Shown here piece after piece: positions 22,441 through 22,498 of a stretch of 50,909 bases of DNA; position 1 is the first letter of the stretch, and the number at the start of each line of letters is the position of its first letter. A model generated the notes under the pieces. That model was not told where the DNA came from. It saw only the letters and a program-made list of their open reading frames with translations, and did not search any database. The translations under genes and the position numbers were made by a program. This DNA is from an uncultured Rhodospirillaceae bacterium (lineage in GTDB: Bacteria; Pseudomonadota; Alphaproteobacteria; Rhodospirillales; Magnetospirillaceae): assembly GCA_903901915.1 (NCBI GenBank), contig CAIUSV010000003.1, forward strand, positions 1 to 50,909, given 5' to 3'.

Positions 22441-22498
22441 GACTCAATTTGAGTCAAACATCAGAGTCCGTCAAGAACCTATTGGAATCTAACGATTC
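22441..22498. promoter_or_regulatory. Cluster of five GANTC methylation sites upstream of ccrM
   Basis: GACTC 22441-22445, GAGTC 22451-22455, GAGTC 22464-22468, GAATC 22485-22489 and GATTC 22494-22498 lie in the 89-base gap between ccrM and rnhB. They are recognised by the protein encoded next door, which suggests methylation-state control of ccrM expression. Caulobacter ccrM also has GANTC sites in its leader. Confidence 0.8.

Follow-up and report, generated by a model that had tools for sequence, protein, structure and literature searches.

Results

The ccrM gene lies on the minus strand at 21353-22438 of the window, by which we mean the whole 50,909-nucleotide stretch analyzed here, and encodes a cell-cycle methylase of 362 amino acids (ATG at 22438-22436, stop codon at 21350-21352). 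The gene upstream is rnhB, for ribonuclease HII (22528-23142, minus strand), the frame of which ends at 22528; directly upstream of rnhB, the region 23108-24412 (minus strand) encodes a CPA2-type antiporter that scores 707 bits (cut-off, 700) against the NCBIfam model "iron transporter MagA." The CcrM protein combines the Pfam domain N6_N4_Mtase (2e-66) with a C-terminal RAMA domain (9.5e-13), a pair that we take as defining CcrM, and is similar over its full length to the solved Caulobacter CcrM (PDB 6pbd; residues 6 to 360, 1.9e-172). It missed the 830-bit cut-off of the NCBIfam CcrM equivalog (627 bits, E = 6.7e-189), which weakens that narrow label; the name of the model suggests a Caulobacter type.

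Within the 89-bp gap between rnhB and ccrM (22439-22527; G+C, 45%) lie five GANTC sites, all contained in 22441-22498, with their first bases at 22441, 22451, 22464, 22485, and 22494. These positions confirm two statements of an earlier note on this DNA, namely, that five GANTC sites fall in 58 bases upstream of the methylase gene and that all of them lie about 60 bases or less from its ATG. When the gap itself was shuffled, a control that allows for its low G+C, the mean was 0.65 GANTC, and at least five sites arose in 1 of 20,000 shuffles. Across the whole window, GANTC is avoided (111 sites versus 213.5 expected from dinucleotide shuffles), and a sample of 326,080 bases from the 4.1-Mb genome (the starts of 20 contigs plus the window) contained 653 sites, or 2.0 per kb. 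Within these sampled bases, a density of five sites per 58 bp was reached at the ccrM gap only. One other sampled place carried four sites (L289); because it falls inside a coding frame, presumably that of rpoC, we regard it as probably due to chance.

On the minus strand, the gap contains what we infer to be the sigma70-like core promoter of ccrM, consisting of the -35 element TTGACG (22469-22474, within the extended TTCTTGACG at 22469-22477), a 17-nt spacer, and the -10 element CAAATT (22446-22451; CAnnnT order-wide). Counting along this strand from position 22474, where TTGACG begins, we place the five sites at offsets -24, -15, +6, +19, and +29. Site 1 (GAATC, 22494-22498, offset -24; a family-level feature) and site A (GATTC, 22485-22489, offset -15; frequent across the order) precede the -35 element. 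Site B (GACTC, 22464-22468, offset +6, order-wide +8) occupies the spacer between -35 and -10, site C (GACTC, 22451-22455, offset +19) shares its last C with the first base of the -10 element, and site 5 (GAGTC, 22441-22445, offset +29; a genus-level feature) occupies most of the interval that separates -10 from the ccrM start codon. Read from sequence, the GANTC sites are placed inside the putative core promoter: upstream of -35, in the spacer, and overlapping -10. An 11-bp palindrome, TTTGACTCAAA (22448-22458), surrounds site C, and a DnaA-box-like TTATCCACA of inferred function is located at 22511-22519; both were read on the minus strand. A generic sigma70 scan of 22380-22650 called no promoter, and we base the promoter assignment on the conserved layout described below, not on that scan. 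A longer palindrome, GACTCAAATTGAGTC, which spans sites C and 5, was rejected as a unit because it is not kept across the genus: site 5 is absent in L295 and L297 and changed to GAATC in L005. CtrA control of this ccrM was likewise rejected, since the 89-bp gap has no half-site of the CtrA consensus TTAA-N7-TTAA, as given in the available part of one study (PMC4287350).

The layout was compared across 210 ccrM loci, of which 205 had distinct upstream regions (5 duplicates were dropped). These loci comprise 130 of the 133 full-length ccrM rows (G045, G047, and G085 were left out, as were partial rows) and 80 more among the matches listed. The order of the window's genome contributed 128 distinct loci from 69 genera and 27 families, and 107 of these had TTGAC in a good -35 context, picked regardless of GANTC. 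In this set of 107, GANTC started at -15 in 65 loci, at +8 in 72, at +6 in 11, and at +19 in 56, against a mean per offset over all offsets of 3.4. With one locus per genus (n = 63), the counts were 40 at -15, 41 at +8, and 35 at +19. When columns were read without requiring GANTC in 58 genera outside the window's family, the spacer site carried 0.94 (G), 0.85 (A), 0.19 (N), 0.89 (T), and 0.85 (C) bits, and the -10 element CAnnnT showed its C in 50, its A in 52, and its T in 50 of the 58 genera. Both the spacer GANTC and the -10 GANTC are absent from all 16 loci of families f17 (6 loci) and f29 (10 loci).

Outside the order, the 20 Rhodobacterales-titled contigs among the matches listed had GANTC at -15 in 16 cases, at +8 in 18, and at +19 in 15. 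TTGAC was present upstream in 9 of the 27 Caulobacter/Phenylobacterium-type contigs among the matches listed, and in none of these 9 did a GANTC fall on, or one base away from, offset -15, +8, or +19. Contig groups were drawn from record titles, some with the aid of general taxonomy; one contig titled only Alphaproteobacteria (L087) is left out of the Rhodobacterales count of 20 but included in the 21-contig density set below. Together, these data indicate at the sequence level that three positions, with the spacer site shifted by two in the window, are held across orders. The emphasis of the earlier note on five sites is therefore narrowed: five are present here, but five is a feature of the genus, the sites at -24 and +29 being local, and the wide pattern is one of three.

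The earlier note had also named a background-level GANTC density upstream of ccrM in relatives as the outcome that would speak against it. This did not occur. In the 100 nt upstream of ccrM, GANTC reached 41 per kb across the 13 loci of the window's family and 23 per kb across the order's other 115 loci; the values were 15 for Rhodobacterales-type contigs (21 among the matches listed; 15.2 versus 15.0 without L087) and 17 for Caulobacterales-titled contigs (27 among the matches listed), compared with 0.35 to 1.7 per kb inside the same ccrM genes. Upstream regions free of GANTC were found at 6 of the 115 order loci outside the family and, among the matches listed, in 4/21 Rhodobacterales-type, 1/27 Caulobacterales-titled, and 4/29 other contigs. 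In several families of the order (for example, at L115, L125, and L142), a second phased GANTC cluster lies upstream of the core promoter at about -64 to -32, with offsets around -55 and -34 recurring.

Close relatives allow the spacer site to be distinguished from its surroundings. In six rows picked for likeness from 11 (five distinct promoters, L010 and L300 sharing one), 45 of 47 columns are invariant, and one of the two that vary is the middle position of the spacer GANTC, where each of the four bases occurs. Across all 11 rows (8 distinct promoters), 15 columns vary, the spacer centre alone has four bases, and 7 of the 8 promoters retain the spacer GA.TC. Because the centre varies and GA.TC stays, we suggest that selection acts on GANTC itself at this position. 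The centre of the -10 site, by comparison, is C in 13/13 family loci; with the centre fixed, conservation of this site in the family may come from the -10 element or the palindrome. The conservation of the spacer site as a GANTC unit, the avoidance of GANTC in the window, and the match to Caulobacter CcrM together provide indirect evidence that this CcrM is specific for GANTC.

Several loci near the window's genome, which is genus g1 in the labelling used, stand apart. L312 and L314 (G152 and G153), labelled as the window's genus, differ strongly upstream of ccrM, encode a CcrM of 74% identity, and have no GANTC near the chosen -35. L320 (G160) encodes a divergent CcrM (58% identity) on a long branch; a TTATCCACA box lies upstream of it, and the stretch searched contained no TTGAC. 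The 120 nt upstream of ccrM in G110 (L004, genus g1) are identical to those of a contig titled Paramagnetospirillum caucaseum (L032).

In the window, a distance of 7 nt separates the -10 element from the ccrM ATG, so the mRNA is probably leaderless. An in-frame ATG lies 6 to 9 nt past -10 in 71 of the 92 order loci with an A..T -10 element (27 at 6, 35 at 7, 3 at 8, and 6 at 9 nt), and a Shine-Dalgarno-like four-mer was present in 12 of those 71. Over all 107 loci, an ATG at 6 to 7 nt was in frame in 65 and out of frame in 1. Leaderless ccrM mRNA is thus probable in much of the order as well. Such a start is not general in genus g1, where the distance is 7 nt in the window, G140, and G150, and 31 to 34 nt in six relatives. 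Leaders in Rhodobacterales-titled ccrM loci were longer, as judged by eye.

Within the 4.1-Mb genome, the exact 11-mer TTTGACTCAAA occurs once, at ccrM, and we rejected a palindrome regulon on this basis. A promoter model recovered ccrM as its sole match (3.2e-7; the next was 0.42, at C25:11154-11184), so further promoters of the ccrM type were likewise rejected; the window was among its 35 training rows, 150 of 1,250 candidates were scored, and the model leans to the layout because 35 of 57 pieces were chosen by eye for it. Of the 12 rows labelled genus g1, 7 have the TTATCCACA 9-mer, on either strand, upstream of ccrM; it was found at 0 of 115 order loci outside the family. Brilli and colleagues list predicted DnaA sites on ccrM in a Magnetospirillum-Rhodospirillum cluster, according to the accessible part of their study (PMC2877005).

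The known reader of methylated GANTC promoters is GcrA, which is described, in the accessible part of one source, as binding methylated DNA with its N-terminal part and sigma with its C-terminal part (PMC7403470). With profile PF07750, the window's genome (G000) yielded nothing at E ≤ 0.001 (best E, 0.093; 14.4 bits, in a 678-amino-acid frame), and a search for a small protein with the GcrA C-terminal part only gave none above noise there (best E, 0.04). Among 136 genomes from other families of the order, PF07750 matched 130 at E ≤ 0.001, the six negative genomes being 73 to 94% complete. Of 14 family genomes, 11 had no match, 2 (G118 and G140) had a C-terminal-only fragment under the cut-off, and 1 (G110) was atypical; in a wider family draw, 6/41 passed the Pfam cut-off (G159, G160, G164, and G170 clearly, plus G110 and G165). 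Absence was called with one profile on draft genomes. In 14 control genomes, Caulobacter was found each time, and Sulfolobus, expected to be without GcrA, also passed the cut-off, so the profile is not fully specific. For comparison, gcrA was identified in 72 to 82% of genomes in one study, as far as its available text goes, and was missing from some Rhodospirillales (PMC8116508).

Partial GcrA-like proteins were observed in the family. L222 (G110) is a 413-amino-acid frame with two GcrA-like N-terminal stretches that exceeds the Pfam cut-off only when these are summed. L219, L221, L223, and L231 (G140, G154, G118, and G162) are small proteins with about 40 to 55 amino acids of homology to the C-terminal, sigma-binding part of GcrA and without the DNA-binding part; such proteins occur in 6 of 41 family genomes at E < 1e-20. 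The L221 protein matches PDB 5yix (E = 1.4e-5) and Pfam GcrA positions 109 to 149 (26.0 bits, just under the cut-off).

Promoter layout and GcrA status were then compared in 131 rows with TTGAC (the GcrA-positive G159 and G160, without TTGAC, were left out). Of the 90 GcrA-positive rows, 70 had the +8 site, 76 had a spacer site at any offset, 42 had the -10 site, and none had the palindrome TTTGACTCAAA; the corresponding counts in the 41 GcrA-negative rows were 5, 21, 35, and 30. The negative rows include G110, G118, G140, and G165, even though summing of stretches takes G110 and G165 over the Pfam cut-off. The spacer site, kept in any form in only 21 of 41 GcrA-less rows, is not indispensable. 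In the window's family it is mostly moved or gone, and the -10 site has become palindromic: TTTGACTCAAA, its centre C fixed, occurs in 30 of the 36 family rows that lack GcrA. Exceptions exist, in that G163 and G167 lack GcrA yet keep +8, and G158, G152, and G153 lack both the spacer and -10 sites. On the CcrM tree, about three changes of the GcrA label are needed, so the link between layout and GcrA is a correlation over few events. We do not claim independent losses of GcrA, given weakly supported nodes, a row labelled GcrA positive though the profile found none (L167, G078), the nesting of family f4 inside the window's family, and the long branch of G160. For the window itself, the two hallmarks of a GcrA-dependent methylated promoter are divided: a spacer GANTC is present (22464-22468), and GcrA was not found in the genome, which makes a GcrA mechanism unlikely here.

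Discussion

The building of five GANTC sites into the core promoter of ccrM argues that this promoter serves as a sensor of methylation by its own product, and we consider such autoregulation probable. The earlier note had proposed the same, and its core stands on the high upstream GANTC density, the fixed promoter positions, and the retention of GA.TC; its emphasis on five sites applies at the level of the genus. If methylation matters, sensing independent of GcrA is likely for the window's genome. In the reading we favor, passage of the replication fork would leave the sites hemimethylated and the ccrM promoter most active; CcrM would then accumulate, re-methylate the sites, and silence the promoter, so that negative feedback would yield one pulse of CcrM per cycle. 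Methyl-adenines in the spacer, beside -10, and in the discriminator would change the contact of RNA polymerase or of a reader with the promoter, and with little or no 5' leader the effect would fall on transcription initiation. We put the negative sign at just short of an even chance. Repression without an alphaproteobacterial reader has precedent in the Agrobacterium gcrA promoter tested in E. coli (available text of PMC11514494), but the sign could be opposite, because methylation activates some Caulobacter promoters (ftsZ and mipZ; available text of PMC3708114).

The reader may differ among lineages. In most of the order it is probably GcrA, acting at the spacer site, whereas in the window's family methyl-adenines near -10 and in the discriminator would most likely act on sigma70-RNA polymerase directly or, alternatively, on a putative dimeric protein at the TTTGACTCAAA palindrome; the upstream DnaA box may add replication timing. 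We offer only tentatively, as a scenario less likely than not, that the reader was swapped: GcrA would have been lost and the ccrM promoter rebuilt, the spacer site being moved or dropped and a methylatable palindrome fixed in the -10 region, so that CcrM methylation is sensed without GcrA. TTTGACTCAAA would then serve as a single-copy operator, with RNA polymerase, CcrM itself, or a putative dimeric protein as its reader.

Other readings account for parts of these data. Methylation might activate the ccrM promoter, with a GcrA-type reader helping RNA polymerase to open it in a positive feedback. The known behavior of GcrA fits this scheme: it protects -35 to -10 of the methylated Caulobacter ctrA P1, according to the part of the study at hand (PMC3667746), promoters that carry GANTC in the -35/-10 interval make up one timing class in Caulobacter (available part of PMC4287350), and the +8 spacer GANTC goes with GcrA in our rows (70/90 versus 5/41). 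That correlation, however, reflects about three label changes in the CcrM tree and may be lineage history, GcrA was not found by PF07750 in the window's genome or most of its family, and in the same Caulobacter source only 31% of GcrA-enriched cell-cycle starts have GANTC within 50 bp (PMC4287350). We judge activation improbable for these reasons.

It is more doubtful that a dimeric repressor, which might be CcrM itself, uses TTTGACTCAAA as an ordinary operator, with GANTC incidental. Its restriction to GcrA-less family rows (30/36 with the centre C fixed, versus 0/90 GcrA-positive rows) would suit such an operator, as would its single copy, which is expected of a self-regulating protein, but this leaves unexplained both the three-site layout outside the family and a spacer site whose centre varies while GA.TC stays. 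Very improbable, finally, is that the sites are mere promoter or DnaA sequence, tolerated in AT-rich gaps where GANTC is favored. GANTC is reported as over-represented in intergenic DNA of CcrM bacteria (available part of PMC3973325), and a DnaA-box-like 9-mer lies nearby in 7/12 genus rows; the exact spacing across orders and the rarity of at least five sites in local shuffles (1/20,000) argue against it. Autoregulation by sensed methylation remains the reading that we prefer.

To our knowledge, the timing of a cell-cycle methylase's own synthesis has been worked out mainly in Caulobacter, and Caulobacter relatives are among the compared lineages without the three-site promoter. The promoter common to Rhodospirillales-like genomes and Rhodobacterales-titled contigs thus offers a precise, testable layout. 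A family that keeps the methylase and its GANTC promoter, mostly without a GcrA match, provides a natural test of the need for a dedicated reader if methylated DNA is to steer RNA polymerase. A reader swap, if true, would amount to an epigenetic self-switch independent of GcrA.

That GANTC occurs in alphaproteobacterial promoters, including that of Caulobacter ccrM, is already known. Brilli and colleagues counted GANTC upstream of alphaproteobacterial cell-cycle genes, and a supplementary figure of that study, of which part was available, may hold ccrM counts (PMC2877005). In the portions of the literature covered by our search, the three-site layout, a leaderless ccrM, and GcrA loss with a rebuilt promoter were not found described. 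The CtrA-controlled ccrM promoter of Caulobacter crescentus resembles the window in having GANTC near the gene start, and its methylation state is reported to gate expression, activation occurring only from hemimethylated DNA as stated in the available text of a modelling paper (PMC2217572); the window's sites, in contrast, lie in a sigma70-type core promoter without TTAA. GcrA-CcrM promoters (Caulobacter ctrA P1, mipZ, and ftsZ), as described in the sources available in part, likewise carry GANTC in or near the -35/-10 region, whereas here there are five sites, the gene is the methylase itself, and no GcrA was found in the genome with PF07750. The Agrobacterium gcrA promoter region is similarly GANTC-dense (6 GANTC in 250 bp) and shows lower activity once CcrM has methylated it, also in E. 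coli, where alphaproteobacterial regulators are absent, according to the accessible part of that study (PMC11514494). Unlike the window's promoter, it drives gcrA. In the CfrBI type II restriction-modification system, the methylase gene region is reportedly controlled by methylation of its own recognition site; unlike CfrBI, CcrM is regarded as an orphan methylase of the cell cycle and has a conserved multi-site promoter.
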